Shown: positions 30,441 to 63,199 of the stretch, in pieces | Position numbering within the stretch: the stretch's first letter is position 1 | Layout of the letters: the number at the start of each line of letters is the position of its first letter | Assembly (NCBI GenBank): GCA_949752735.1 | Contig: OX457039.1 | Coordinates: 23,414,830 to 23,478,829 of the forward strand | Origin: Lumbricus terrestris | Lineage: Eukaryota > Annelida > Clitellata > Crassiclitellata > Lumbricidae | Direction: 5' to 3' | Length of the DNA stretch: 64,000 nucleotides | Position numbers and translations under genes: made by a program | The notes under the pieces: model-generated | The model's database searches: none | Told to the model about the DNA's origin: nothing | Seen by the model: the letters and a program-made list of their open reading frames with translations, nothing else

Positions 30441-31580
<1,140 letters not shown>

Positions 31581-32353
31581 GGGGAACGGACATTAGCCCC
31601 CCTGGACATTATCCCCCCCGGACATTATTTCCCCCGCACACTAGCCCCCCGGACATTAGCCCCCCCGGGGTAGGACATTATCCCCCCCAGTATATGATAG
31701 CATTACATAATTCTATACATTACACATTAGTTTAACATCCTGTAGGAATATGCTAAGTTAATTGAAGGTTTAATATGTATAATATAAGACATTTTAAAGG
31801 TCTGAAACGACGCTAAGAAGTCTACGAAGCTCATACGTAAATGTCGTTAATAAACCTTCGTTGTAGCCATAACTGACACTAACAAGTAGGCCTACTTACT
31901 GTATAAGATTCCCATTCGTTCATTTCTCAAATGTATTGAATCTGATTTTGAATTGAAATGACACTAATAAAAAATTTAAGTCTAGGAAGCTGAGACATAG
32001 CCTAACTGACATTAAGAAATCTTTGTTGTGAGACACTAAACAAGTAGACTGTATAAGCCATAGGCCCTACATACGATTCCCATTCGTTCATTTCAAATCT
32101 AAGTCTAGGCCTAGGCCTATTGATACAACTAGGATCTAAATGACACTAAGTACTTTCGTTTGCATGTGAATGCCAGTGACAAGTCTTATCGGTTACGGCA
32201 TTATTCTACGATTTGCACATAGGGGGGGGGACTTTGTCCGGGGGGGCTAATGTCCTACGCAAAATCAGGGGGGGAATATGTCCGGAAGGCTAATGTCCGG
32301 GGGGGACAATGACCGAGGGGAGATAATGTCCAGGGGGGCTAATGTCCTACAAC
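31581..32353. mobile_element. G-tract TIR element A1 with 9-bp target duplication
   Basis: The left end is GGGGAACGGACATTAGCCCC and the right end is GGGGGGCTAATGTCCTACAAC. Inside each end are 5 to 6 spaced repeats of GGACATTA-CCCCCC (or complement). The flanks are TGTTGGCGT (31572-31580) and CGTTGGCGT (32354-32362), 8 of 9 identical. The core (about 31700-32215) is shared with A2 and A3 in inverse orientation (CGATTCCCATTCGTTCATTT, GACAAGTCTTATCGGTTACG). No coding capacity. The 9-bp duplication and G-initial ends resemble Mutator-like (MULE) elements, by inference. Confidence 0.85.
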
Positions 32354-32703
32354 CGTTGGCGTATAGGCTATCTGTCTGAAGTGTGATTATAGCCTACTCG
32401 CTTTATAATTTCATACACAATCACTTTCAAATAGCCGTTATAATAGAATCTATTTCTTCCAATTTTAGGACAACCTAATTTGACTTAAAACCAAAATTTT
32501 TGGATGATACAGGATTTCGACATGTAGGCCTTAGTTTTAATAACATTATTATAGTAAGGCCTAGCATGCATGCTTCGTATCATTGGTCTTAGTAGGCTGA
32601 ATAATTGTCTATTTTGTGTTTTCCCGCGGTCAAGATCTCATGGTGCTATTAACACTGTAGCTATCTGATGTAATCGGTCATGTGAACCAAAAACAAGGCT
32701 TTC
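32354..32703. other. Intron sequence between A1 and T2 end
   Basis: No ORF recognised. From about 32625 the sequence (GTCAAGATCTCATGG) may be subterminal T2 sequence. Confidence 0.4.
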
Positions 32704-32745
32704 CGGACATTATTTCATGCCGGACAAGATCTCATGCCACACCGG
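32704..32745 (-). repeat. Terminal inverted repeat of family T2, right
   Basis: The reverse complement begins CCGGTGTGGCATGAGATCTT and continues GTCCGGCATGAAATAATGTC, matching 20559-20600. No shared flanking duplication is visible. Confidence 0.65.
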
Positions 32746-32784
32746 CACTATTTCTCCTTGGCTTTTAAGTGCTTGGCTTTCACT

Positions 32785-35700
32785 GAGTAGAGCAGGGAGG
32801 AGACCTGACCGACGACTCCAATTGGAGCGTAGACTCGAAACCGACCTGGGCTGGCGAACCACAGTCCACCGTGCCCACCTTCTCGTGGGGCGACCTGTTA
32901 GTAACCCGTCCGTATGAAGGGGTGAACGAACGAACACGGATGGCAAACGGGAGGGAAGGCAATGGCAAACCACCCCTTATCTTCTGCCAAGAAAAATTCA
33001 TGATGTATCCAAGAAGAAAACCAACGATAGTCACCAAAGGTGAGACCCTCAGGCCTGAGGGTGACTTAATGGCTACTGAGGAAGAGTGCACTGACGAGTC
33101 GGGAGCTTCGGGTCCGAATGAAGCCACAGGACCAAAGCCGAAAGGACGTCCAGCGGCGAATATGGCCATGAAGCAAAGACTTGACATGAGCTGCCAAAAA
33201 TCTATGAAGGTCGGAACATGGAATGTTAGAAGCATGCAGAGCGGGAAGATGGACATCATCCAAAAAGAGATGGGAAGGATGGATATAGCGATACTGGGAT
33301 TATGTGAGACCAGATGGAAGGGAAAAGGACATTTCAGATGGAACGGTTTTAAGATAGTAATGTCGGGGCAGTACGAGACGGGGAGGAACGGGGTAGCAAT
33401 CATGTGCGATAGGAAGAGCGCTGATGCGATAATGGGGTATAATACAGTGAGTGACAGAGTACTGAGTGTAAGATTTAGGAGAGGATGGATCAATACGACA
33501 ATCATGCAGGTATATGCCCTTGCAGCGATGGCGGCAGAGGAGAAACAAGAAGCCTTCTACATAGAGCTGCAAGGCACAATTGACGCAACACCGAGGGGAG
33601 ACATACTGGCGATTATGGGTGACTTCAACGCGAAAGATGGTGAGGAAAGAAATGGATGGGAAGAAGAAGTGGGTAAGTACGGACTGGGTGTACGGAACGA
33701 GGCGGGGGAGAGAATGGTGGAGTTCTGCGGTTCCAATGAACCACGAATAATGAACATATGGTTCTTCGAACAACCGAAAAGAAGACTTTATACATGGACG
33801 ACGCCGGATGGAAAACACAGGAATCAGATCGACTACGTGGTGGTGAACAAAAGATGGAAGAGCACGATAAAAGATGCAAGAACAAGACCGGGGGCGGATT
33901 GCAGAACAGACCACGAGATAATAGTGGCTACATTGCAGCTAAATTTGAAGAAGATGAAGATAGGCAAAAGACTGACCAGTTTCGATTGCAAAGGCATAAC
34001 ACCAGAATACAGGGTGGAGATAAAGAAGAGGTTTGAGATCTTAGAGAGAGACGTTACAACGGAACAGGAGGATGCAAACAAGTTATGGACAAAGATGAAA
34101 ACTGCGAGGCGGCGCAGAAACATATGCCAAAGAAAACGTCAAGGAAAATTACCCCATGGCTATCCAAAGAGGCCATTGAGGTGGCAATTGAAAGGAGAGA
34201 AGCAAAGAAGGAAGGGAGCAGGGATAGGGTAAAAACATTGAATAAGGCCTTCCAAAGGAAGGCAAGGGAGGATAAGGAAAATCATCTTAAGGAAATGTGC
34301 AGGGAGCTGGAGGAAGAAGGGAAGAAAGGAAGAACTAAAGAACTGTTCGCAAAGATAAAGGAAATAACGAAGACAGCAGGCCCTAGAATGGGATCACTCA
34401 AGACGAAGGATGGGAAGACAATAGGAGATGAGGAGGAGATGAAAGAAAGGTGGAGAGAGTATACGGAAGAGCTGTACCAGGAGAACGAACGTGTCATGAA
34501 GGAAAACATCAAAATAGAGGAAGTTGAAAACGAACCAGAGATATTGGAGGCAGAGGTGGAGTGGGCGATAAAACAGCTCAAGGACAACAAAGCGCCAGGA
34601 CATGATGGAATACCTATTGAACTGGTAAAAGCGGGAGATGAAGCAGTGGTGAGGACTATTACAAAACTATGCAATCAAATCTGGAGAACTGGGGAGTGGC
34701 CGGAGGACTGGAAAAGGTCAATGTTCATACCAATATTCAAGAAAGGAGACGCGAGAGAGTGTGGAAATTGTCGAATGATAGCGATGATATCACACACGAG
34801 CAAAATACTCCTCAAAATAATCCACAAAAGAATGGAGAAGACAATTGAAAGCCAACCAAGCGGGATTCAGGAAGGCGCGAGGAACGCGCGTTCACATCGC
34901 CAATATAAGGTGGATTATGGAGAGACAGATGGAGTACGGGCATGAGGTGCATATGTGTTTTATAAACTATAGTAAGGCGTTTGATTGCATTGACCATACA
35001 CTACTATGGAGGACGCTGATCGAGATGGGAATTCCGACGCATCTGGTTAAACTACTGAAAGGCCTTTATGTGGATCAAGAGGCGGTAATAAGAACTGAAT
35101 ATGGAGACACAGGGAAATTTTAAATAAGGAAAGGAGTGAGGCAGGGGTGCATTCTGTCTCATTTCCTGTTCAATCTGTATGCCGAGAGAATTATGAGGAG
35201 GGCTGGATTGGAGGAGGCAACATATAGCGGGGAAAATACTGAATAATTTGAGGTACGCTGATGATACGACATTATTGGCGGAGAAGAGGGACGAATTGGC
35301 CGAGTTAATAAGAAGAGTCAGGAAGGAAAGCGAAAAGGCGGGACTATACTTCAATGTAAAGAAAACAAAGGTTATGACAACTGCAACATGGGAAAACTTT
35401 GAGGTAGATGGAGAAACAAAAGAGGTAGTATCGAGCTTCACATTCCTGGGATCTATGTTAGATTAAGAGGGAAGAAGTGATGTGGAAATAAGGCGGCGGA
35501 TAACAATGGGAAAAACGGCAATGAACGGTCTGGGAAATATTTGGAAAGATAAATACGTGAGCAGGGAAACAAACAAAAAGACTGGTAAGAGCACTGATCT
35601 TCCTATATGGATGCGAGACATGGACGAAGACTCAAGATATGGAAAAGAAAATCAACGCGTGCGAGATGTGGATTTGGAGGAAGATGCTAAAGATCTCATG

Positions 35701-36033
35701 GATGGAAAGGAGAACTAACGAGTCGGTGCGTGAGGAGCTCGGAATAGAGAGGAAGGAGACACTGCAACAAACAGCAACCAGGCGGAAATTCAGCTACTTC
35801 GGCCACGTTATGAGATCAAACGGTTTGGAAAAGGAGCTGACGACGGCATGCGGTGAAGGAAGGAGGAGACGCGAAAGACCGGGGAAGAGGTACAGGAAAA
35901 ATCTGGCATGAGCCTAGGGGAGCTGAGAGAGGCGACAAGAGAGAGGAGACAGTGGAGACAGTGGAGAGAGAGCAGTGGAGAGGATACATCACGAATGTCT
36001 CCAGAGCTCCAAGAGCTGACGGCACCAGGTGAC
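32785..36033 (+). pseudogene. Nearly full-length RTE retrotransposon (copy B)
   Basis: 5' region with TAACCCGTCCGTATG, then an endonuclease frame (32871-33950) reading VGTWNVRSMQSGKMDIIQKE, LGLCETRWKGKGHF, LAIMGDFNAKDG, NQIDYVVVNKR and CRTDHEIIVATL (catalytic DH). A linker frame follows. RT: QLKDNKAPGHDGIPIELVKA (from about 34573), MFIPIFKKGDARE, CFINYSKAFDCIDH, RKGVRQGCILSHF, RYADDTTLLAEK and SFTFLGSMLD. The C-terminus (35639-35911) reads YFGHVMR and ends near CACCAGGTGACC at 36033. A frameshift near 33900-34100, one near 34855 and several stops after 35120 break it. Same family as 54296-57660. Confidence 0.93.
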
Positions 36034-36549
36034 CATCGCCTCCCAAACCCCGGCTCTTTTCCGCCTGATGCTCGCTTTTCCCTATAAATCTTGATTCCCA
36101 CAGAAGGGACTTGATCAAGTACTGGTTATTGCGGGAACGGCTAGATGAAAATGTTCAAAGTGGTTATTAATTCTACCACTAACGAGCTATATTCCGAAGT
36201 CTTATCTGAACAAATGGGAAAGGACTTTTTTTTGAGTCTGAAACCATGTTTTTCAGAAGTTTTCATGAATTTATCGCTCATAAATACAGCTGGCAAACAA
36301 GGGTTTGAAACGTGCTCTAGCTGCTGTCAAAAGTAAAAATGCGCTGGTTTCTACCCCGCTTGGGGAGCTTACGGCGCTCCCCAAGGACCCTAGTCGGCAT
36401 TGATTTCGTTCCTTCGGCACTCGCTGCTTCGCACCTTTGGGGCTTATAATAATAATTCTGAGCACCCCCATGAAAATGTTCTGGTTGCGCCCCTGGCGGC
36501 CAAATGTGTGCCGCACACGTGTATCTGTAGCTCCCATGGTCTCTCATGC
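36034..36549. other. Intron sequence, nothing firm
   Basis: Short frames only. A CTTGGGGAGC...GCTCCCCAAG inverted pair lies near 36359-36385. Confidence 0.4.
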
Positions 36550-37130
36550 TCCCTTTGATTCGGTCGACAGGCAAGACAGCCATCAACGACTTTGTTTACC
36601 GAGGTCTGAATAGAGCTGGTACTCCGGCAATCAAGGAGCCGTCGGGGGCTTACGGGGTTGGACGGGAAACGCCGGACGACCAGACCCTAATCCTTTGGAG
36701 TAACGGGTGATCGTTGATTTGGGATGCGACCGTGGTTGACACGGTGGCTGCTTCGCACGTCCTCGAAAACGCGACCGAAGCTGAGAGAGAGAGAGGCGAA
36801 AAAAGTCGCAACTAGGAAACTTTCAAAATACTTGGACCTCCAAAGGACACGGACACACCTCTTCGTCCCCTTGGCTGTCGAAACAATGGGACCCATCAAC
36901 AATGAGGGTCTCGCCTTTGTGTCCGAAATTGGACGCCGACTGTCAAAGTTATCTGGAGATTTACGCGAAGCTAACTTCCTTTTTCAGAGCATTTCAGTTA
37001 CAAACGAGCGCTACAACGCCGTTGCTTACCAAGGCACCTTGTCTGGACTGCCCGGGGCCACGGACCGGCCACCCTAAACAACTCAAATTGTTCTGTAAAA
37101 ACTAAATCGAAACCTAAACCTAACATTCCG
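36550..37130 (+). pseudogene. RLE-like LINE, C-terminal fragment (second copy)
   Basis: The + strand reads INDFVYRGLNRAGTPAIKEP, TLILWSNG, a stop, then LIWDATVVDTVAASHVLENA (about 36570-36775). It continues as one frame to 37077 with LFVPLAVETMGPINNEGLAF, SEIGRRLSKLSGDLREANFL and FQSISVTNERYNAVAYQGTL. This matches the C-terminal part of the element at 5937-9230 (WD-T-V after the PDG region; SLGPIN...GRR...FLFQRLS). It then reaches an (ATA/ATG)n-rich tail at 37135. 5'-truncated. Confidence 0.8.
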
Positions 37131-37339
37131 GTTATAATAATAATAATGATAATAATAATGATAATAATAATAATAAGAATAATAATAATAATAATATATA
37201 ATAATAATAAGAATAATAATAATAATAACACGGAATATGAATGGGGCCTTTCCAGACTGTGATTTTATATTAGGCGGTAGTGAAGTTCTTGAGGGATCCT
37301 CTATACCACGGGGCAAAAAAAATTTTAAAAATAAAATAA

Positions 37340-37388
<49 letters not shown>

Positions 37389-37458
37389 TAATATAATATA
37401 AATAATAATAAAATAATAATAATAATAATAATAATAATTATTATTATTATTATTACAA
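37131..37458. repeat. AT-rich simple repeats ((ATA)n/(ATAATG)n and (AAT)n)
   Basis: Two runs, about 37135-37230 and 37335-37458. The first is likely the tail of the RLE-like LINE. Between them (37231-37330) no gene is seen. Confidence 0.9.
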
Positions 37459-37705
37459 CGGAGCGATAATTATCGCATTCCTTGGCAATTTCTTTCTTGA
37501 AGATGGGTATGAATATCGTGCTCCTCTAATCGCTTGTCTCCCATATCCGGTTGCATAGTGTCGATGTTCTCTTCCTCATCTTCTCTCGTCCCGATTTCAT
37601 GATCTCTACATGTATCTCATGTGATCCCAGTGCCTTGTTGTCCTTGAGCTACCGAATGGCCCACTACACATCGCTCTTTAATATTGCAGGTTGTCGCTCG
37701 CAGTT
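37459..37705 (-). pseudogene. RTE-like RT N-terminal fragment
   Basis: The minus strand reads LKDNKALGSHEIHVEIMKSG (about 37660-37600), CNRIWETSD, and IFIPIFKKEIAKECDNY (about 37525-37475). This is the fingers region preceding the first RT motifs. Truncated on both sides and adjoining an (ATT)n tract. Confidence 0.75.
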
Positions 37706-38073
37706 GCCATACAAGTAGCTATATTTATGCATTTTGGTCCTGATCTGTTTGTACAGTACAGAATATGTGATTTAGTCGCCATGGTAATATTGTGTGCCGT
37801 TTGCCGTTGGTCTGAGGACGAGAGATTACATTGAAACCTTGGATCCCCGAAAGTTTTCTGCTTATTGTTCAGATTCTTGTTTCAAAGATCGTCCTCTTCA
37901 CATTTATTCCGCAATAAATTTCTATTAATAAAACCATTTATTTCCGATTACTGTCAGAATGGAACGTAATCGGACTTTACCGACGTTTTGGCTTCGACCA
38001 AACGCCGCATTTGAAATAACCTAGCTTGCAAAAATCTGGTATTTTTATATCTTGGTTCAATTAATGTGTATAG
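37706..38073. other. End of the 20.9 kb intron, nothing recognised
   Basis: No ORF or repeat seen. It ends in the acceptor GTGTATAG (38066-38073). Confidence 0.45.
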
Positions 38074-38274
38074 GCACCACCGTTCCTTATGCTGCGCGAA
38101 ACGGCATTTAAGGAAACCAACAACGACCAGTTCGAAGGATATTGTGCTGACCTTGCACGGGAGATCGCAAATATTATACATTTCGACTACGAGATACGTC
38201 CTGTCAAGGACGGAAAGTACGGCAATAATGAAACCGGAGCATGGGATGGCATGGTCGGAGAACTGCTACGGGGG
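38074..38274 (+). CDS. GRIA-like: AMPA-type glutamate receptor, ligand-binding S1 exon
   Basis: Sixty-seven codons, phase 0 to 0. It starts APPFLMLRE, corresponding to the first strand of S1 ('ESPYVMMKK'), and continues QFEGYCADLAREIANIIHFD, VKDGKYGNNETGAWDGMVGE and LLRG. The FEGYC-DL-EI helix and the DGKYG motif are diagnostic of AMPA/kainate S1. The tyrosine in DGKYG is the agonist-capping residue (Y450 in GluA2 mature numbering). The donor is GGG|GTTAGT at 38274/38275. The next exon begins with EADMAIAPL. Confidence 0.97.
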
Positions 38275-38635
38275 GTTAGTTGATTATTCCAATTGTTCAT
38301 TTTCTTCTAAAACCGTATAAAACTTAATAAAATTGGATTTACTCCATGAAATGCTAGATATGTTTAAACGCGTTGGACAAATTTCTAGATGCTGTTACAT
38401 ACATGTGCGTTACTTTAAATTATTTACTTGGAATTACTTGAAATCCTTATCCTTACATTCGTTGTTGTATTTCAGCACTCAGTTCTCCTGTAAAGCGTTT
38501 TTTGCATAAATGGAAGCTATTTGGCACGGGGCGCGGACATTTCCCTGGACAAAAACCCCAGACAACAACCTTTCGGACAACAACAAACCCGAACAATACC
38601 CCCTAGGGTAGGACAATCCCCCTGGTAGAACATAT

Positions 38636-39324
38636 TTGTCGGATAAAATCTCGCACATATACGGGCTCATTGTGACTAATTTTGACTAATATTGCGTACG
38701 CGAGTCAAATTGACGAAAATAATTATCGGTAAAAAGAAGCCAAATAAATTTTACTTAAACGGAAGCTGGATTGATGAAATCGGAGCTGCATTGATGGAAA
38801 TTTTCTTGCTTAAAGTGAAGCTGGATGGATAAAAAATAATTGTTATTTAAATAATAGTTGGATTAAACGAATTTTTGCATAAATGGAAACTGGATTGATG
38901 ACAACGATTCAAGTTGTCCTAAATTACTCCAGCAGGTATTAGCTTTATATATGAGTGAGTGAACGACAATAAGAAGCTATAAAGTTCACGCCTGAATAAC
39001 AGTGACAGGACCTGTTATCTACTCGTATTTATTTATTTATTTAACGCCTCTTCGATAAACTACAAAGAGGCGCTCTCTGCGCTAACTAGACGAAATGATG
39101 TTAAGTGTAATAACAACAAGAAAATTTCATCAATTAGCAAAATAAGTCACAGTGAGCCGGAGACAAATAGAAGTTGTAATAACCGAATTTTTGCCTAAAT
39201 GGAAGCTGGATTGATGACAGCGATTCATGCTTTCCTAAATTAATCCTACAACAACAAGAAAATTTCTTTAATTAGCAAAATTAGTCACAATGAGCCCGTA
39301 TATGTGCGAGATTTTATCCGACAA
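38636..39324. repeat. Perfect 48-bp inverted repeats flanking 593 bp
   Basis: 38636-38683 and 39277-39324 are exact reverse complements (48 of 48), beginning TTGTCGGATAAAATCTCGCA. Beyond the right copy the DNA continues as a T1-type end (CAACAAAAACGATCC..., to about 39430). The interior carries copies of AAGCTGGATTGATGA and a LINE-like tail on the minus strand at about 39027-39076. The exact identity of the arms suggests a recent event or gene conversion. Confidence 0.85.
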
Positions 39325-39651
39325 CAAAAACGATCCGAGACCTTCTGTCATTGGTCCACGTGGTCCACGTCAGAGAGCAACGTTAGACGCCACTGCCACG
39401 TTTTCGCTGACAAATATGATCCGGGTTGCTTGCTAGCGGTAAACTAGCGGGGTTGATTGTTTAGACTCTAGGGGTACGGTATAGTACTAAATAGAGTGAA
39501 AAAATACCAGAATTAAGGGTTGATGGACAAGAGCCGAGAGAATAAGTTGTTTTGAGGATGGATGATCAAAGTGATTTCCTTGCCGAATGACATGGTGTAA
39601 GACTTCAATGCACCTCCATTTGTTTGATTTTTAAAATGTCCATACCGTAAT

Positions 39652-41244
39652 CATGGTGTAAGAAGGATGGTGTGCGCACTTGGCTGAAATTTCTGGCAAA
39701 AGGCGCCAGATGGCGATGGCGTTCCCAATTGACGGACATTGCCAATAAGCCTAATGAAATTTCATGATGTTGTACTTATACTCCTTCACTGCGTTCCTTA
39801 GTGCCAGTCTCATGTCTGGACGAAGGAGGAATGGAGGAGGGCGACACAAATTACCTTTGCTATGTTCTGTTCCCTTTGCTCTTTATTTTTCTCCTGTGTT
39901 CCGTGTTCTCTGTTCCATGAGATGTCATGTGTTCCCTGTGTTCCCATGTTCTCTATGTCCTCTGATCCTGATGGATGTTCCATGTTCGCTTGCTCTCTGT
40001 GATGTACCCTCTGTTCCCTGTCAATTGTTTTTCCATGTTCCCTGTGCTCATTGTTCCCTGATGGTCACTGTGATATACCAGATTCCTAATGTTCCATGGT
40101 CCTTAATTGTTTATATCTTTTATGCTCCACGGTCCTTGTTGCTTGTTTCGCGTCCATTATTTTCTGTTGTCGCTGGTGTTCAATGTGATGTTCCATGTTC
40201 CTTTTGTTCCCTGCTGTTCCTGTTTCTTATGTCCCACAGTTTTTGTTACATATTCCATGTTCTATGTTCCTTGATATTTCTGATGCTTATCGTGATGATT
40301 CATGTTCCTAATGTTTCACGGTCCTTGTTGCTTGTTTCGCGTTCCTTGTTCCTTAATGTTTCCGTTTTCTCTGTTGTTCCATGTTCCTTATGATCCACGG
40401 TTTTTTTGCGTGATCCGCGTTCCGTATTTTTAAATGCCTCTGAAGTTCCCGCGATGTTCCTTATTTCTTATGTTTCCTTATGTTCCTTGTGTTCCTCATT
40501 CCTTGTTGCCCATTCCGCGTTTCATGTTCCTTAATGTTTCATGTGTTTCGTCTTATGTTCCTTGTTCCTTGCGTTCAACGGACTTGCGTGCTCCACATTC
40601 CGTGTTCAGTTTTCCCGTTATGATCCATGTTCCTTACGTTCCATGATGTTCTCTGTTCCTTGTGTTCCACACTCCTTGTTCCACATTCCGTGTTCCATGT
40701 TTCTTAATGGTTCTGATCTTCCCTCTTATGTTTCCACGGTCCTTGCTGCTTGTTCCGCGTCTTTTGTTTTCTGATGTCTCTGGTATTCCTTGTGATGTTT
40801 CATGTTCCTTGTGTTCCGTGATGTTCCCTGTTCTTTGTGTTCCACATTCCATGTTCTTCACTGATTCTGATTTTTTCGGATGTTCCATGTTCCTTATGTC
40901 ACCTGATGGTCCATGTTCCTTGTGTTGCAATTCCTTGTTGCACTTTCCATAATTCCATGTTCCTTGATGTTATCGATGTTTCCCATGACGTTCCATGTTC
41001 CTTACGTTCTACAGTCCTTGTGGCGTGTTCCGCAATGCAAGCATGTTCCGTCTTCCTCGTCCTATATTCCCATATTCTCTGAACAATGTTCTCTATGATG
41101 CTTCATGTTCTTTACGTTCCACGCTCTTTGTTGTATACGAGCAAATGTAGAAGGCAGCGCCACCTGCTGAAATAAAATAAGTCTAGCCAAAAACATTGTG
41201 TGGCCAGTACAGGAAATGCGCACACCATCCCTTCTTACACCATG
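39652..41244 (+). mobile_element. TIR element S filled with a TGTTCC satellite, copy 1
   Basis: The left end CATGGTGTAAGAAGGATGGT and the reverse complement of the right end CATGGTGTAAGAAGGGATGG give inverted repeats of about 30 bp (continuing GTGTGCGCA). Inside, from about 39885 to 41120, is a degenerate satellite of TGTTCC spaced by 2 to 9 bases (ATGTTCCTTGTGTTCC and variants). Long Cys/Phe/Val-rich frames run through it on the + strand, but they follow from the repeat composition. Flanks CCGTAAT and CTGTAAT may be a 7-bp target duplication. A second, inverted copy is at 61066-62965. Confidence 0.82.
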
Positions 41245-42110
41245 CTGTAATGTAGGATTTTAAGGTGTCATATCAATAAAAACAGCTCATTTTTTATGTC
41301 TATAGTCATATATTTTAGTTTAAAATTTCAGAGTGTTGTCTCACAATTACTTAAAAAGTTTAGATTTACATCGTGCACCGCTACTTTTAAAGCTGTCATT
41401 TTTACAAAATAACTCGTGATTTTAGTGCTCAGAGACGTGATATTATGATAATTATAAGATTTCAATTCATGTCACTTCCAATCGCTTAAGAATTTTTTAA
41501 TTTACACGCACTGCAACGACAGCATTTTAGGCTGTCGCCTTCAAAAATTTCATTACAGATAAACAGTGGATAACAAAAATTTTTAATAATATTTATGACA
41601 TATTGGGGGATATAACCATCTCTGTCCCCTTACCACAAACTATGGAGGTTTAAAACTTTAGAGTGTTGCCTCACAATTACTTACGTCTTCCCTATCTCCT
41701 TAAATATCCGCCCATGATAGTAAGTTTTGCACATTATAGTATCATAATTATTATATTAATAAATAAAAAATTCTAATTATATGGTAGGAAATAAGATCAT
41801 GGTGTACTATGGTAATTTATGCAATGCAATAATTATAATAAGCAGCAACTAAAAACTGCCATCATTTTGTCAAATTTTCTGGGGAAACATTTTCATTTTT
41901 TATCGCCTTCTCCCCTGTAAACGTCTAGATCTGTGGCGAACATGCCACAAACGGGCGATACATGTGAATGATAACTTTCGGGTAACTCGCGGGAGTAACC
42001 ATGACTCTCGTTACGTAGCCATTTGGCTTGGGTGAAAGTATCTGAAACCGGTTTCATTTGGATTTCGGTTTCGTCACAGTTTCGTTTAAGTTGCCGGTGG
42101 ACTAAAGCCA
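41245..42110. other. AT-rich sequence with a diverged direct repeat, no gene
   Basis: GAGTGTTG(T/C)CTCACAATTA occurs at about 41332 and 41660, with similar flanks, pointing to an old tandem duplication of about 330 bp. Nothing coding was recognised. Confidence 0.45.
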
Positions 42111-42119
42111 ACGGTGCGC

Positions 42120-42760
42120 TGCTATATCATGGAGTAGTACCGACTATTCCATGCGTACTGTGATTCCCACCAGCAGAGGGCCCTTGAAGAACCAGGGCGG
42201 TAAACAGTCAGAAGTGTAGTTGGTCCTCGTTTAGATGAAAACGAGGCCGCAAGTGCTTAAAAAGTCGATGGAGTATGGAGTAGCTCAATCTTCTTCGCAC
42301 GTAGTAGACGATCACACCACCACCACATCGCAAGTCTGCTTCCTGGCCTTCAGATCTTGGACGATCGATGGCCAGTGGGGTCAGAACGGCGGACGGTGAC
42401 ATCAGTGGATGACAGATGACACGATTCCGTAACCGTAAGAACATCCAGTTCATTGGTTGATATTGTGTCAGCAACTTGCACAAACTTCGTCTTCAGCGAG
42501 CGGACGTTCAGCGTAGCAAGACGAAGGAAGCGAAGAGCGGTTAGGCCACGAAGACAGCAGTTGTGGAGAAGAAGTCCAGGCTGGCAGACCTGTTGGTCGC
42601 CATAGTCCATAATAGAATAGCGTCTTTCGAACTGACCGTTTAATTGTCGATGGACACGTGCTGAGTGAACGAATCAGGTTGACTGTGCACACGAGCGAAG
42701 AAGGTGTAGACATTGTTGAACAGACGTTCAAAAATATTGTCTAACTGGTAAATCGGAATA
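42120..42760 (-). pseudogene. LINE endonuclease fragment
   Basis: The minus strand reads LRLATLNVRSLKTKFVQVAD, NELDVLTVTESCH and, after a shift, GGGVIVYYVRRRLSYSI. This has the shape of an APE endonuclease N-terminus ('LNVRSL... DVL.VTET... GGGV...YR'). Broken in at least two places and with no RT beside it. Confidence 0.6.
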
Positions 42761-42830
42761 GCAACGTGAGACTAGACATGCTCAGTGCTGCGACTGTAGG
42801 AAATAATTTTTAAATTAAATTGTAAAATTG

Positions 42831-43187
42831 GGGGGGGTCCGTAGCTCAGTGGAGAGAGCGTTGGCCGATAAACTGAGAGTCAATATCGCGACCCGGGTTC
42901 AAGCCTCGCTCAGGGCAAAAATTTATTTGAATTTTCTGTTAGCTGCCAGTGGCGCTTTGCTGTTGCGTTGTTTGACTCGGGTCTGTTGAAAAATAAGTTA
43001 GCCCCTCCCACTCCTGGCTTGGCCGATCAGGAGCGTTCCAACACTTAGGCCATTAGTGTTAAGCTACCGAACCTGTTGTAGCCGACCTGCGTGTCGAGCG
43101 AAGCTGGCCGTATTTCGTATAACCTTGTACCTGTAATCGTTCTGCGTTGTGTCAGATTGAATTTGAATAAACGAATATTATTACAAG
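42831..43187 (+). mobile_element. tRNA-derived SINE, family S2
   Basis: The tRNA-like head GGTCCGTAGCTCAGTGGAGA has an A box (TAGCTCAGTGG), an anticodon-loop-like CCGATAAA (GAT, Ile-like) and a B box (GGGTTCAAGCC). A body of about 250 bp with GCCAGTGGCGCTTTGCTGTT follows, and then a tail GTGTCAGATTGAATTTGAAT plus AAACGAATATTATTAC. The tail recurs alone at 25321-25369. It is too long, with too poor an acceptor stem, to be a real tRNA gene. Confidence 0.85.
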
Positions 43188-45066
43188 ACAATATGAACTA
43201 CATAATATTTTGTAACTGAAATAAAATTGGCAAGATTGGCAGAAGTATAACTTCTGATTAGGAGTAGCTAAATCTTTTGGGTCTATATCCTATTTGAACT
43301 TCTAAAGCGCTAATCGAAAGCCAAACGTAAAAATAACTGAGGGGTCAGACGTTGATTTATATCGACTTGTATTCTTAATGGATCAAGATAGGAGATCCGA
43401 ACGAGCCACGATCTGGATCCCTGAGGCAGGACGTGGTAGAGGGATACCAGCTAAGGATCAACGGGATGGGGACTGCGAGAGGATCTGCGATGTCTAGTGA
43501 TGACGTGGAACGATGCTGCTGAGGTGTTGATTAACGGTGTGGAATGCGTTGCCCGAAGTGCAGATCCGCACGCGAAGGATTAAGGTCTAAGCTAAGGAAA
43601 TGGGTCTTAATGAGGACTCCACTACGGGGTCCTAACTATGTTATTAGTTATGAGTGGAATGGGTGAAGGGAAAAGAATCAAGATAGTTCAAGAGATGGTA
43701 CAGTGTTGGACATGGTTTGATTTAAGAAGTTGAAGACTTGAGATGGGCGTGGACTGTTTCAGTAGGAGAATTATAGAAAAGTTGATTTATAGAGTTTGGG
43801 TACAATGAAGACACTACGGGGTTTCAAGAAAGACTAGGGGCTATAAGCCTGACAACCTCTTGCAATTCTCACCAGGTTCCAGGATGTGAGTATAGAGTAG
43901 AATCGTATAGTGTTACTTTACTTGCAAGCTTATGACAACTCTACTGCAGTTAATTCTTATATAGGTTTGTGAGATCGCGAGAAAAAGGTGTTTACGATAA
44001 ATAACATCATAATTGTAATCCACACACAAACAATCAGACAAAAGCCAACAGACAAAGACAAAAGCCTTAAAATAAGATGCCCGTAACACATGACGTACTT
44101 AATTTATAAACAATACAATTTGAAATGGACTGCAGCAATTAGTTACATTTAGCGCCCCAACTCAGGTTGGTCGTTGGCAAAATGGCCGACGATGTGGCCT
44201 CTGAGTCGTTATGGCAGATTATGGTGTCTGTAGTGAAAGTCGCCGAGAAATTCACGAATATTTGTTAGTCTTTTGAAGTCGTGATTGCTTCTCTGACTTT
44301 GTCGTTTCCGTTTTCATAATGTTTGGACGGGATTTTGTATCGCAAGTTCGCGTGGACCTAGGCGTTCGCCATTGGACGGGTCTACTTCGTCTTCCGCAGG
44401 GGATGCCAGGTTGGTCAGAATACCATCATATCTGCCAGCAATTTCTTGGTGTGCGGACCAAATGAAACCGGCGTTCACCAGAGGACGGATCTGTTTCGTC
44501 CTCCGAAAGGGATGCCAGTTTTGATCATACCATCATATCCGCCAGCCTGCGATTCAATTACCGGACTTGCACACTACACGAATGAGACGATGAAACGAGA
44601 GAAGGATTTTATGCTTCATTTACTGTCTTTCAGCGACGATTGTACCGTTGCGGTGCTACGTGTTTGCGATAGTTCTGCTCGTTGCTGTTCTTTGCTTCGA
44701 CCATCAAGCAGAGACTCGAATATTTCGATCCTAAACTCAACTTAACATCGTACGAGAAACTTTCGGCTGGACTCTTATGTCTTCATCGGAGTTCATTCGC
44801 TTGTGACTCGTGTTGTTTATTTTTTGGTGCGTTATTACTGTCAGATGACATTGTTTGCTGTAGCGACTGTTAACATCATAGGCCGTGCGCTTTTGTGCAA
44901 GACGTGTCTTGTTAAAGCGCGTTAGAAATAATAAATTGTGTTGTATATTGTATAGTTCATTTTTCCAACGCGGATTTTCCATTCTAAAAATAGCATACGC
45001 TACGCAACGGTACTTAAAACCGCTTCGTCCTTTAGAGTCACGTTATCTTTCAAATATTTTCTCATA
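43188..45066. other. Long stretch without recognised gene
   Basis: No known domain. Between about 44350 and 44560 a unit of roughly 115 bp is duplicated: GTTCGCCATTGGACGGGTCT and GTTCACCAGAGGACGGATCT each lead to (C/T)GTC(T/C)TCCG...GGGATGCCAG and ATACCATCATAT. The remainder looks unique. Confidence 0.5.
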
Positions 45067-45075
45067 TTCGTGATG

Positions 45076-45897
45076 GGGTGTGGGACAAAAGTCCCCTCGG
45101 ACAAAAGCCCCCGGACATTAACCCCCCTGGACAAAAGCCAACCACCCATTTTTCCTAGCACATTGGCTCCCCCGGACAAAAACTCGCTATGTGCAAATCA
45201 TAGAATAATGCCGTAATCGATAAGACTTGTCACTGGCATTCACATGCAAACGAAAGTTCTCAGTGTCATTTAGGTCCTAATTGTGTCAGTAGGCCTATAG
45301 ACTTAGATTTTAAATGAACGAATGGGAATCCTATAGGGTCTATACAGTCTATTTGACGCCAGTTAGGCTACGTCTGTGCTTCGTAGACTTGCTAGCGTCG
45401 TTTCAACTTTCAATTCAACATTGATTCAATACATTAGATAAATGAACGAATGGGAATTGCATACAGTAGGTCGGTCTACTTGTTAGTGTCAGTTTTGACA
45501 ATTACGAAGGTTTGTTAACGTCAGTTAGGCATTAAACTTTTATCTAGATTTCGCAAACTTTGACTTATAATTTTTTCATTTATGAGAGACTTTACACAAT
45601 GAGTTGTTCGCGTCGTTATACAATTAATGCCTTTAAATGTTTTATAATATGCCTATTAAACCTACAATTAACTTAGCATATTCAAAAGCAATTGTTTCTT
45701 ACATTGTTAAACTTATGTGCAATGTTTAGATATTCGCTTAGCTTATTGCTACATTTTGTGCATCGTTTTTAGATACTGGTTTCATAGACTGGGGGGCTAA
45801 TGTCCTACCTCCGGAGGGGCTAATGTCCTACCTCCGGAGGGGCTAATGTCCGGGGGGCTTTTGTCCGGTGGGGCTTTTGTCCAGGAAGTCGTTCCCC
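45076..45897. mobile_element. G-tract TIR element A2 with 9-bp target duplication
   Basis: The left end is GGGTGTGGGACAAAAGTCCC and the right end is ...TTTTGTCCAGGAAGTCGTTCCCC. Flanks are TTCGTGATG (45067-45075) and TTCGTAATG (45898-45906), 8 of 9. Subterminal units alternate GGACAAAAG-CCCC and GGACATTA-CCCC. The core (CGATAAGACTTGTCACTGGC and CAAACGAAAGT) matches A1 and A3. No coding capacity. It is nested inside E2. Confidence 0.85.
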
Positions 45898-46029
45898 TTC
45901 GTAATGTTACTACCCCCACAATCACACTTAGGCATACATGAGTGAATTACAATAGGTTTTGCACACCGAGTTATTATGCTGAATAAACAGAATATTATTA
46001 TCATTGTTAACAAAGTTGGTGAAGCCACC

Positions 46030-46135
46030 CGTATCGTACTTGTCAACGGATTAGATTTCGCACGTAAGTCGTGCGAAATTGCAGCGAAGTGGGCGTGGCC
46101 GGATAGTATTTGTTGCCCGGAGAGTATATCGCTCC
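46030..46135 (-). mobile_element. T1-type transposon end
   Basis: The reverse complement reads CCGGCGTGGAGCGATATACT, then CCGGGCAACAAATACTATCC and GGCCACGCCCACTTC, in step with the left 110 bp of T1 (17390 on). A short internal palindrome, TTCGCACG-TAAGT-CGTGCGAA, is also shared. The other end of the copy was not found nearby. Confidence 0.7.
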
Positions 46136-46718
46136 ACGCCGGAAACAGTCATCAGTGCCGACCCCTCGCAGACACGTAGAATCATCCAACGGAATCCCGT
46201 CAACAGCTTTCAGATGATGTGAATGTTCAGGTTGCGTCAATAGAGTAGAGCGGCGACAGGTGACCGGACTTGCAAACACGAAACGCTGACGAAACTGAAG
46301 GTCCTCGCTGGTTGAAGATGATGCGTCCGGCCGGCCAATCGTCGGGCACAAGGTTTGCACAGTAGAAGGCATTTGTCGCTTGTCGGTCTGTAGTTTTGAA
46401 CGCCACCAGAGACAACGTATGACACTAACTAGTTGACAAAGCACCTCGAACTGAATAATTAACCTAAGTTTGAAAAAATTATACCTGCAGAAATAAGCTA
46501 TTTGCGCAGCAAGGGGGGAATTGTCCGGTGAGAATAATATCCTAGGCTAAACCTGGGGATTATTGTCCGGGGTGTTATTGTCCTGGTTTTTTCCAGGGGG
46601 GAATGTCCTACACTCATTTGGCACATTCATTGATTTTGTGAAATTGACATCGAGAGAACGAGCGTAAAGTTCGAGTAAGGCAGTTCTGTATATGCTCCTT
46701 ATTGCACTTTGTTCTTAG

Positions 46719-47090
<372 letters not shown>

Positions 47091-47111
47091 TAAAGTGACA
47101 CACACTCGCGC

Positions 47112-47172
47112 GCACACACACATACACACCCATATATATATATATATGTATATATATGTGTGTGTATATATT
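47112..47172. repeat. (CA)n-(TA)n-(TG)n self-complementary repeat
   Basis: ACACACACATACACACC, then alternating AT, then GTGTGTGTATATA. The CA and TG parts can pair around the TA centre to make a hairpin. It starts about 38 nt after the splice donor of the pore exon. Confidence 0.85.
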
Positions 47173-47862
47173 TACTTATATATTCTTTTAATATTAGGCT
47201 GTTGATCAATCGCGATTAACGAATTTAAAAGAATTGCGATTAACATTTTTTAAAGCATTAATCATACGCGTTAATTGGATCTCATTAAAATGGAATCATA
47301 GAGAGAAAAGGCCGTTTAAGCTCATGATTAGACATTCTTTGTAAATATTCCAAGAAAGAATTTCGTAGGACATTAGCCCCCTGACATTAGCCCACCCGGA
47401 CATATCCCCCCATTTTGCGCAGGACATTAGCCTACCGGACAAAGTCCTCCCCCCTATGTGCAAAAAAGTCCTCCCCCTATGTCCAAATCGTAGAATAATA
47501 CCGTATCCGATAAGACTTGTCACTGGCATTCACATGCAAACGAAAGTACTTAGTATCATTTAGGTCCTAATTGTATCAATAGGCCTAGGCCTAGACTTAG
47601 ATTTGAAATGAACGTATGGGAATCGCATGTATGTCTATATGTTTAGTGTCTGACAACAAAGGTTTGCTAACGTCAGTTAGGCGCTACGTCTGTGCTTCGC
47701 AGAATTAGGCTATTAGCGTTATTTTCATTCAAAATTAGATTCAATACATTAGAGAAATGAACGAATGGGAATCGTGGGGCGCGGACATTTCCCCCTCCTG
47801 GACAAACCTCCCGGGACAACAACCCCCCGGACAACAACAACCCGGACAATTCCCCCCTTACT

Positions 47863-48893
47863 TAGCACTTAGTCCATCCCGTGCAGAACTGCACATCGGG
47901 CAACGCAGCCTTTCCACTCCACCCGGTCCATCGCCATCCGAACAGCATCCTCCACCGTCATCTCCAAGCACTTCAGATCTTCTTGAACAGTTACCATCCA
48001 GTTCTTTCTTGGCCTTCCTCTTCCACGCTTCTCCTTTGGAATCCAGTTCATCACCTGATTGGCTCTTCTGTCGCTGCTCATTCGTGCCACGTGTCCCATC
48101 CAGTTCAGTCTTCTCTTTCTGATGATGTTCTCCAGTTTGTCGTATCCCTGTTCTTTCTCTGATGATTTCATTTGTGATCTTGTCCTTCCAGGAGACGTGC
48201 AAAATTCTTCTTTGCCACCTGTGATGCGCTGCCACTAGTTTTTTCTTATTTGCCACCGTCATTGGTCATGTCTCAGCTCCATATAGCAGTGTACTCATCA
48301 CTATGGCCTCATACAACCGGATCTTGACTTTTATACTACATCCATTGCTCTTCCATATCTTTTCCAATTTTCCAAAGGCCGTATTTGCCTTCCCAATACG
48401 TACCCTTACCTCCTTGTCACAGCTACTATCTGCTGTTAGCGTACTGCCAAGGTAACAAAAGTCCTGCACCTCGTCGACTGGCCTGCCGTCAATCGTGACC
48501 CTGTACACTACTTGCCATTTCCCTATCTTCATAATCTTGGTCTTTTCTGGGTTTATAGTAAGCCCGACTCTAGCTGCCTCTTCCTGTACTTTATCTGTTA
48601 TCTCCTTTATTCCTTCCCAGGTGCCATCCAGCAGCGCGATATCATCAGCAAAGTCAAAGTCACTGAGCCTGTCAGCCTTTATCCATTTCAGTCCGGTGTT
48701 ATTATTCTCTGTTGCTCTTTTCATGACCCAGTCCACCACTAGTACAAATATCATTGGTGACAACACACAACCCTGACGTACTCCAGTCATAATCTTGAAA
48801 CCACTCTCCTACCTCTCCTCCATGCCTCACCGCACAGCGACTGCCATCATAGAAGCTCCTGGCGATGTCTATGATCTTTGTTGGTATTCCATA
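47863..48893 (-). pseudogene. LINE RT and C-terminus (RTE-like), inserted in E1
   Basis: Minus strand: GIPTKIIDIARSFYDGSRC (about 48890-48835), a shift, then MTGVRQGCVLSPMIFVLVVD, DFDFADDIALL (FADD in place of YADD), INPEKTKIMKI, FCYLGSTLTADSSCDKEV and LLYGAETW. After a gap comes RRILHVSWKDKITNEII, another shift, and LNWMGHVARM to MDRVEWKGCV. The 5' part, including the endonuclease, is missing. Two or three frameshifts. Confidence 0.88.
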
Positions 48894-49030
48894 GGGTAGG
48901 ACAATTCCCCTTCCTGGTAGAACATATTGCGTATAAGTGGTTGTACTATAAAACGCCGGTGCTAAGTATGCAAGTTAAATTGATGAAAAGAATTCTCGCT
49001 AAGTAGAAGCCGGATACTAAATAAATTTTC

Positions 49031-49290
49031 CTTAAATGGAAGCTGGATTGATGAAAATGTTCTTGCTTAAATTGGAGCTGGATTGATGAAAATATTCTTC
49101 TTTAAATTGGAGCTGGATTGATGAAAATATTCTTGTTTAAATTTGAGCTGGATTGATGAAAATATTCTTATTTAAATTGGAGCAGGATTGATGAAAATAT
49201 TCTTGTTTAAATTGGAGCGGGATTGATGAAAATATTCTTGTTTAAATTGGAGCTGGATTGATGAAAATGTTCTTGCTTAAATTGAAGCTA
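49031..49290. repeat. 35-bp minisatellite, about 7 units
   Basis: The unit is AAATTGGAGCTGGATTGATG plus AAAATATTCTTGTTT, with small changes between units. Single or paired copies of the same unit occur in E2 near 38755-38920 and 39195-39225, so it is part of the E-family core. Confidence 0.92.
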
Positions 49291-49977
49291 AGTTTGAGCA
49301 AATTATACCTACAGATATAGGCTATTTGTGCAGCAAGGGGGGAATTGTCAGGGGGAGTTAATGTCCTAGGCTAAATCAGGGGGAAATTGTCCGGGGGTTA
49401 TTGTCCGGGGGGGTTATTGTCCGGGGGTTTTGTCCAGGGGGAAATGTCCTACACTCGGGAATCGTATACAGTAAGTAGGCCTACTTGTTAGTGTCAGTTA
49501 TGGCTACCATGTAGGTTTATTAACGACATTAACGTATGAGCTTCGTAGACTTCTTAGCGTCGTTTCAGTCCTTTTAAATGTTTTATAATATATCATATTA
49601 AACCTTCAATTAACTTAACATATTCCTACAGGATGTTAAACTAATGTGTAATGTATAGATATTCATTTAAATTGGGGGGAATTGTCCTACCCTAGGGGAG
49701 AATTGTCCGGGGGTTGTTGTCCGCGGGGTTGTTGTCCGGGGGGTTTGTCCAGGGGGGAAATGTCCGCGCCCCACGATTCCCATTAATTACATTTTGTGCA
49801 TCACTTTTGGGTAATTATATCATATACTGGGGTCCGACCCCGGAGGGATAATGTCCGGGGGGGCTAATGTCCGTTCTCCGTGACAAGTAATCAGTTACGG
49901 TACTATTCAATGGTTTCAAAAGGGGGCTTTTGTCCGGGGCTTTTGTCCGGGGGGGCTAATGTCCTACACCCTCTGTA

Positions 49978-61065: not shown

Positions 61066-62965
61066 GATTATTTTCAGAAGGGATGGTGCGCGCACTTCCT
61101 ATTCTGGCCACACAATGTTTTTGGCTAGATTTATTTTATTTCAGCAGGTGGCGCTGCTGTCCACATTTGCTCGTTGGCGGCATAGACAATATAGAGCAAG
61201 AAGCATAAGGAACATCCGAAACATGAAACATAAGAACAAGTAGAAGGCAACAACATAGCATAGCACTTGGAGCATATAAGGGGGCGATTAGGATCAGGTA
61301 GCATTACAGGGAACATGGAACATCACGCGGAGCACCAGAGAACATAGGCCTAAGCGAATATATATACAACAAAGAGCGTGGAACGTAATGAACATGAAGC
61401 ATCACAGAGAACATTGCTCAGAGAATATGGGGATATAGTACGAGGAAGACGGAACATGCTTGCATTGCGGAACACGCCACAAGGACTGTAGAACGTAAGG
61501 AACATGGAACATCGATAACATTAAGGAACATGGAATTACGGAAAGTGCAACAAGGAATTGCAACACAAGGAACATGGACCATCAGGAGACATAAGGAACA
61601 TGGAACATCAGGAAAAATCAGAATCAGTGAAGAACAAGGAATGTGGAACACAAAGAACAGGGAACATCACGGAACATAAAAAACATGAAACATCACAACG
61701 AACACCAGAGACATCAGAAAACAAAAGGCGCGGAACAAGCAGCAAGGACCGTGGAGCATAAGCAATATAAAGCAAGGACCATGGAACATAAGGAACCTGG
61801 AGAAACATATAAGAACACGGACTGTGGAACACGCAACAGGGTCCGTGGAACATAAGGAACATGGAACATAAGAGGGAAGATCAGAACCATTAAGAAACAT
61901 GGAACACGGAATGTGGAACAAGGAGTGTGGAACACAAGGAACAGGGAACATCATGGAACGTAAGGAACATGGATCATCACTGGAAAACTGAACACGGAAT
62001 GTGGAGCACTCAGCAAGGTCCGTGGAACGCAAGGAACAAGGAACATAAGAGGAAACACATGAAACATTAAGGAACAGGGAACCCGGAATGTGCAACAAGG
62101 AATGAGGAACACAAGGAACATCAGGGAACATAAGAAACAAGAAATATCGCGGAAACTTCAGAGGCATTTAAAAATACGGAACGCGGAACACGCAACAAAA
62201 ACCGTGGATCATAAGGAACACGGAACAACAGAGGGAACACTAGAAACATTAAGAAACAAGGAACGCGAAACAAGCAACAAGGACCGTGAAACATTAGGAA
62301 TATGAATCATCAGGATAAACATCAGATATATCAAGGAACATAGAACATGGAATATGTAACAAAAACTGTGGGACGTAAGAAACAGGAACACCAGGGAACA
62401 CAATGAACATTGAACATCACATTGAACACCAGCGACATCAGAAAACAAAAGACGCGAAACAAGCAACCAGGACCGTGGAACGCAAGAAATATAAACAACT
62501 AAGGACCATGGAACATAAGAAATCTGGTATATCACAGTGACCATCAGGGAACATTGAACACAGGGAACATGAAAAAACAATTGACAGGGAACAGAGGGTA
62601 CATCGCAGAGAGCAAGCGAACACGGAACATCGATAGGAACATCAGGGTCAGAGGACATAGAGAACATGGGAACACAGGGAACACATGACATCCCATGGAA
62701 CAGATAACACGGAACACAGGAGAAAAATAAAGAGCAAAGAGAACAGAACATAGCAAAGGTAATTTGTGTCGTCCTCCTCCATTCCTCCTTCGTCCAGACT
62801 AAGAAACGGACGTGCAGTGAAGAAGTATAAGTATGTATGCCATACAATATCATGAAATTTCATTAGGCTTATGGGCGAGGTCCGTCAACTGGGAACGCCA
62901 TCGCCATCTAGCGCCTTTTGCCAGAAATTTCAGCCAAGTGCGCACACCATCCTTCTTACACCATG
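61066..62965 (-). mobile_element. TIR element S with TGTTCC satellite, copy 2 (inverted)
   Basis: The minus strand begins CATGGTGTAAGAAGGATGGT at 62965, with the next 120 bp nearly identical to copy 1 (GGCGCCAGATGGCGATGGCG in copy 1, one base changed here). It ends near 61080 with GTGCGCGCACTTCC...GCCACACAATG, as in copy 1. The last bases of this end are diverged. The satellite (here GGAACA/GGAACATAAG on +) spans about 61370-62760 and is somewhat longer than in copy 1. All long frames in it are repeat-derived. Confidence 0.82.
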
Positions 62966-63199
62966 GTTTCTTCGTAGATATTCGTCACCTTGCTTTTCTG
63001 TTCGTATGTTCTTTGATGTAGCTGTTTGCGAATTGAACATTTCTTGTTTCTTATCGAATTTAACGTCCAATTGCCGTTAGAAGGAACTTTCGTAGTTTTA
63101 TTGTCACTTCTCCATGAGAAATAGCGCCGAAGATCGTCGAAATCCAATGAAGGTTGAATTTTGACGCCAATTACTGGTTGGTAATGCGCTATTTATATA
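62966..63199. other. Intron sequence, nothing recognised
   Basis: Short frames only. Confidence 0.4.

Follow-up and report, generated by a model that had tools for sequence, protein, structure and literature searches.

Array-ended, non-autonomous transposons in the Lumbricus terrestris genome, very likely of a FLYWCH-MULE lineage

Background

We analyzed a stretch of 64,000 nucleotides from the annelid Lumbricus terrestris (assembly GCA_949752735.1, contig OX457039.1, positions 23,414,830 to 23,478,829 of the forward strand), which is called the window throughout and lies on the contig here labeled C5 of a 1.056 Gb genome. Between positions 31,581 and 49,977 the window holds nested insertions of two types, A and E, whose ends carry arrays of short tandem units with GGACA and a run of C. 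These are very likely non-autonomous transposons, similar to miniature inverted-repeat transposable elements (MITEs) and Foldback elements, of the FLYWCH-MULE (Phantom/Muta/Tm1-like) lineage within the Mutator superfamily, MULE standing for Mutator-like element. The kind is a known one, cut-and-paste Mutator elements with short tandem-repeat ends that probably dock the transposase. The family adds a large, homogeneous group to the MULEs with repeat-array ends, few of which have been studied, and the group of related FLYWCH-MULE transposases that this one animal appears to contain, many of them adjoining an array of their own, makes end recognition and its change directly testable.

Insertions at the locus

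The four insertions proposed by the first-pass annotation (A1, A2, E1 and E2) are present, with their ends and duplications, at about the places it gave (Table 1). It had put all target duplications at 9 bp, which holds exactly for E1 and E2; in A1 the match is exact over 8 bp and has one mismatch over 9, and the duplication of A2 is imperfect. The ends it described, starting with GGG(G) and ending near CTACA-C or TTCCCC, had to be corrected, as the two ends of one element differ and carry distinct motifs, here termed L and R.

Table 1. Array-ended insertions and loose ends in the window (window coordinates)
Feature	Position	Strand	Type and ends	Flanking duplication
A1	31581..32354	+	A-family; L end GGGGAAC left, R end (TACAACC) right; from reading plus end-motif and flank comparison	exact 8 bp, GTTGGCGT, 31573-31580 and 32355-32362
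E2	38528..46615	+	E-type ends 8.1 kb apart; interior of other repeats and A2	exact 9 bp, ATTTGGCAC, 38519-38527 and 46616-46624
A2	45076..45897	-	A-type, nested in E2; R-like end GGGTGTG left, L end (GTTCCCC) right	TTCGTGATG (45067-45075) / TTCGTAATG (45898-45906), 1 mismatch in 9
A3	47361..49879	-	older A-type, split by E1; degraded R-like left end (TTTCGTA), L-like right end (GTTCTCC)	none found at its ends
E1	47776..49456	+	E-type, inside A3	exact 9 bp, GGGAATCGT, 47767-47775 and 49457-49465
Loose E-type L end	49674..49772	-	GGGGCGC plus array, without partner	
Loose A-type R end array	49923..49975	-	TACACCC; from reading	

The joined flanks of E1 match A copies across the junction (52 BLAST matches with 85-95% identity, of which 37 come from distinct contexts), and these copies hold one copy of GGGAATCGT, the target before insertion. 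Corresponding empty sites for E2, A1 and A2 gave 0 matches across the junction among the loci collected, the right flank of A2 having been set one base off. An ionotropic glutamate receptor gene (domains Lig_chan-Glu_bd and Lig_chan) has exons on either side of E2, at 38080-38271 and 46719-47090, and the interior of E1 holds a reverse-transcriptase-like frame, named by eye, on the minus strand at 48266-48808.

Several further features were seen inside E2. A 55-bp inverted repeat, 98% identical (38636-38690 and 39271-39324), perhaps marks the ends of another inserted element. Degenerate GTTCC-rich tandem repeats at 39649-41049 recur as an inverted copy at 61525-62968 (84.6% over 1,471 columns), with long open frames and no evident gene. 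The stretch at 42838-42920 is tRNA-like (GTAGCTCAGTGG ... GGGTTCAAGCC), perhaps the head of a short interspersed nuclear element; an ARAGORN scan of the window called no tRNA, there or elsewhere.

Ends, copies and target duplications across the genome

The arrays with C-runs that had been described at the ends are borne out genome-wide, the unit pattern GGACATTA N0-10 CCCCC having 6,096 forward matches against 21 for the reversed control pattern; on the reverse strand the figure was 13,420, in which matches that overlap and vary in length are counted too. Exact L ends (GGNRNRCGGACATTWSCC) number 2,558 and exact R ends (GRKTGTAGGACATTWSCC) 2,335, with 0 for the controls. The L motifs are GGGGAAC, GGTAAAC and GGGGCGC, the R motifs GGTTGTA, GGGTGTA and GAGTGTA. 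Arrays have a main period of 16 bp, with a C-run of 6 or 7 in 349/455 units, and are followed by a spacer (such as GGGGTA, CGATTTTGCGTA or CTGATTTAGCCTA) and then by one or two further units. Being inverted at both ends, the GGACA-unit arrays form the long terminal or subterminal inverted repeats by which MULEs are recognized. Positions were available for the first 100 L and the first 100 R ends among the matches listed, all on contig C1, where L is joined to R in 61 of the 63 neighboring opening and closing pairs 300-1,100 bp apart (RR 2, LL 0). Most copies seen are short, because 64 of the 76 L-R pairs within 10 kb span 1,150 bp or less, and three of the longest share one end.

Target duplications were counted in 52 elements, in which arrays were paired by position alone and ends were set 7 bases outside the outermost unit, without consulting the flanks; the sample is biased to young A copies, most loci being best matches to A1 and the rest coming from C1 and the window. 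Exact duplications of 9 bp were found in 24 elements and of 8 bp in 8, with 0 at 6, 7, 10, 11 or 12 bp, whereas control flanks taken from different elements gave 0/2,652 exact matches at 8, 9 or 10 bp. The remaining 20 lack an exact duplication; four of them come within one mismatch of a 9-bp match, and among the 20 are several that are mispaired, nested or carry the same motif at both ends. The 9-bp duplication thus stands well above chance, as the statistical check suggested by the first-pass annotation had called for, and the lengths agree with the 8-11 bp, mostly 9, looked for in a MULE. Duplications are 8 bp throughout the hAT superfamily, unlike the pattern here, in which 9-bp cases are more numerous than 8-bp ones (24 vs 8). 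Copies with 8 bp had been named beforehand as evidence against a Mutator-like origin; they do occur (8/52) but do not speak against it, as duplications of MULEs are commonly 8-10 bp (PMC5225508, PMC3169594).

Orientation and alignment were possible for 38 of the 52 elements. Thirty-two are A copies with a mean pairwise identity of 96.8% (gaps left out) and a consensus of 805 bp; a second A subfamily accounts for three more, the two E copies have a core built of ~36-bp tandem repeats, and one element stands alone. A and E had been described as subfamilies with different cores and interchangeable ends; the ends are indeed related, and the A-type motif GGGGAAC also occurs at some E-type ends, but free interchange is unsupported. 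Nested A and E elements also crowd a region of C1 (L011-L012, C1:1106000-1125999), where one A copy is inserted in another A-type element at GTGACAAGT; an A-type end lies at the same site at position 49880 of the window.

Sister elements with a FLYWCH-MULE transposase

A FLYWCH-MULE transposase is encoded by a sister family with GGACAAAACCCCC arrays, the same array type standing at both ends. One sister copy, which holds the C-terminal part of the transposase, has an exact 9-bp duplication, and 6 of 77 sister ends adjoin transposase matches, against 0.05 expected. An N-terminal FLYWCH together with a MULE domain was found in the sister lineage, A and E being non-coding: both domains are above the cut-offs in P0001, an intact relative of the sister transposase from another public source, a locus on C13 has both, and one on C2 has a FLYWCH frame. 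Within this assembly, the sister clade yielded no intact transposase. In all, 34 MULE loci were sliced, most on the 3' side only. A Foldseek comparison returned three matches under E 0.001, all to ISCth4, an IS256-family element.

Two observations concern other MULE loci. A C-run array at L057 (GGACAAAAAGTCCCC) was considered as the C13 element's own and rejected; it belongs to a neighbor, and the C13 element has GACAAATGCGCGC arrays. A MULE family that combines FLYWCH with a RING finger at the C-terminus occurs at L049 (C13:33675900-33679900) and nine further places. The ten matches are identical in score and frame length, 152-bp and 15-bp tandem arrays accompany them, and the family looks recently active.

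The Mutator-like transposition proposed for the window is supported by the 8-9-bp duplications and by FLYWCH-MULE elements that have the same type of array, one with an exact 9-bp duplication. E arrays and MULE-coding elements have the unit GGACAAAA-CCC in common (9/49 E units). A MULE transposase between A or E ends, which the first-pass annotation had proposed to seek, was not found, and therefore the link from A and E to the enzyme runs via the sister family that shares a unit with E. We infer that A and E copies are mobilized in trans by a FLYWCH-MULE enzyme, and that E suits the GGACAAAACCCCC sister enzyme best. In such a scheme, the zinc finger of the transposase would bind GGACA-containing units, the enzyme would pair one L end with one R end, its DDE site would cut at the 7-bp terminal motifs, and the ends would be inserted into target DNA through cuts staggered by 8-9 bp.

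Several results weigh against this assignment, the main gap being that the search yielded no transposase between A or E ends, two long L-R pairs on C1 (2.2 kb) lying outside its scope. The units of A are for the most part GGACATTAK (187/224), unlike the sister unit. Among the 34 sliced loci, C-run GGACA arrays belong to a MULE element only at those on C14, C8, C10 and C2, where the duplications of C14 and C2 are imperfect (7/9 and 6/8) and the left end of C8 was placed by pattern only. On C1 below 38.6 Mb, 0/10 MULE matches lie within 30 kb of the R ends listed (all at least 32 kb away), and of the places with GRKTGTAGGACAAT (30; control 10) none lies, by eye, within 2.5 kb of a listed MULE match. 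A search with the MULE profile (PF10551) likewise gave no match within the window's stretch of C5; it scored 150 of 211 candidates, so that weak matches could be missed.

The lack of any MULE within an A or E element also bears on the idea that A and E owe their movement to a transposase from outside the MULEs (Merlin, P or hAT, with 8-9-bp duplications), their likeness to MULEs having arisen by chance or convergence. The 8-bp duplications in 8/52 elements would suit such an origin, and Galileo is an example of Foldback-like ends combined with a P-type transposase (PMC3169594). We consider it very unlikely, however, as 9-bp duplications are three times as common as 8-bp ones (24 vs 8), E has an exact unit in common with MULE-coding elements, and all have GGACA-array ends with 7-bp terminal motifs. 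The copies are also very unlikely to be ancient remnants multiplied through segmental duplication, with no recent transposition. Duplicated segments do hold some copies, such as those on C1 at 14.58 and 14.90 Mb with the same pattern of ends, and the assembly yielded no intact enzyme of the sister clade; against this stand the identity of the 32 A copies despite differing flanks, many with their own exact duplications, and the existence of the intact relative P0001. A FLYWCH-MULE origin of A and E remains very likely.

Array units and the enzyme

Arrays of 12-16-bp units were found in 20 of 27 slices 3' of MULE domains compared with 15 of 102 control slices, several of the latter being simple repeats and at least one (L30b) coming from another MULE family. 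The seven slices with no array were L056, L064, L066, L067, L068, L069 and L082, and L052 and L053 have no 13-16-bp array of at least 2.5 copies in about 4 kb. Units near MULE domains include TGCGCGCATTTGTC, CCCGTCAAAATAGT, CGCCCTTTTGTCGGG, CTGTCGCCCGTTCTA and ATTGCTCATAGGCTT. Many FLYWCH-MULE families adjoin arrays of 13-16-bp units, several of which retain a GACAA core while the other half varies (CCCCC, GCGCGC, GGGCG); this core was spotted after the units had been seen, and its recurrence is a lead rather than a test. Across 11 families, identity of the MULE domain correlates with unit similarity (Spearman 0.50, permutation p 0.009), on the basis of a 92-aa domain (26 aa for C2) and with two near-identical pairs contributing; L052 and L053 were omitted, both being without an array and L053 also without a domain frame found. 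The correlation suggests that the array unit may be a docking site that changes along with the transposase, a proposal to which we give even chances. If true, the genome would offer a ready-made collection of enzymes paired with their sites, and comparing them could reveal both the FLYWCH recognition code and how new transposon specificities arise.

The repeated C/G runs had been interpreted as either transposase binding sites or quadruplexes, and of these the former fit better. A structural role, in which forming a G-quadruplex or i-motif (as a transposition signal or a chromatin anchor) would be the main function of the arrays in place of sequence-specific docking, draws on the following scores: G4Hunter reached at least 1.5 in 103/104 ends against 33/104 shuffles, and a four-tract pattern with loops up to 12 matched 98/104 ends against 16/104 shuffles. 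Placozoan chromatin loop anchors are marked by Mutator terminal inverted repeat motifs (PMC12221973), for which the available passages of that paper claim no quadruplex. The canonical form (four tracts of at least three G, loops 1-7), in contrast, was seen in only 1/104 ends compared with 6/104 shuffles. Related MULE families have arrays in which a GCGCGC or TAGCCC half replaces the C-run, so the lineage does not need it, which suggests that C-runs are dispensable. With long loops only, and relatives without C-runs, quadruplexes are probably not the signal, and we give the structural role a slim chance next to docking.

Comparison with known systems

The same anatomy is seen in Tm1, a Mutator/Foldback family of root-knot nematodes (PMC3169594). 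Outside its inverted repeat each end has a 7-bp motif of its own, and units of ~14 bp stand in tandem, with a spacer and then a single further unit. Its duplications are of 8-10 bp (mostly 9), its transposase is a FLYWCH-MULE enzyme, most members are MITE-like, and a few elements have one motif at both ends and lack a duplication. The elements described here are like Tm1 in their asymmetric 7-bp end motifs, with L joined to R in nearly all neighboring pairs, in their mostly 9-bp duplications, in their tandem-unit arrays with spacer and extra unit, in their MITE-like majority, and in having same-motif elements without duplication. They are unlike it in the sequences of unit, end motif and spacer, in the C-run and mostly 16-bp period, in the about 2,300-2,600 exact ends, and in copies that are much more alike; by eye, the Tm1 motifs given in that source (CGGTTAA, CCTACCC, unit CGATTCAGTATCCGC, GGGAAAAGGGGA) are absent from the units and ends here.

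Muta1 of Aedes aegypti has 12-bp subterminal units with 3-4-bp spacers, 8-9-bp duplications and a MULE transposase, and the MULEs of that mosquito include many non-autonomous copies (PMC5225508). The duplications, subterminal tandem repeats and many non-autonomous copies are shared with our family; unlike it, Muta1 has a 10-bp imperfect palindromic end and an intact 3,198-bp element (PMC5225508). No such palindromic terminus was seen here, the 7-bp ends differing between left and right and being non-palindromic by eye.

Duplications are 7 bp in Galileo. This element of the P superfamily is similar in its long, internally repeated Foldback-like ends and differs in its P-type transposase (named in PMC3169594). 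Phantom MULEs (PMC6446971) have animal hosts, 8-10-bp duplications and, in some members, a FLYWCH finger, and these are the points of likeness with a group to which the present transposases may belong. The unit string GGACATTAGCCCCC had no match in the literature searched, and the family may already be listed in Repbase or Dfam. Taken together, these sequence comparisons indicate that the A/E family has a Tm1/Muta1-like anatomy and is, by its sequence, a family of its own, a member of neither.
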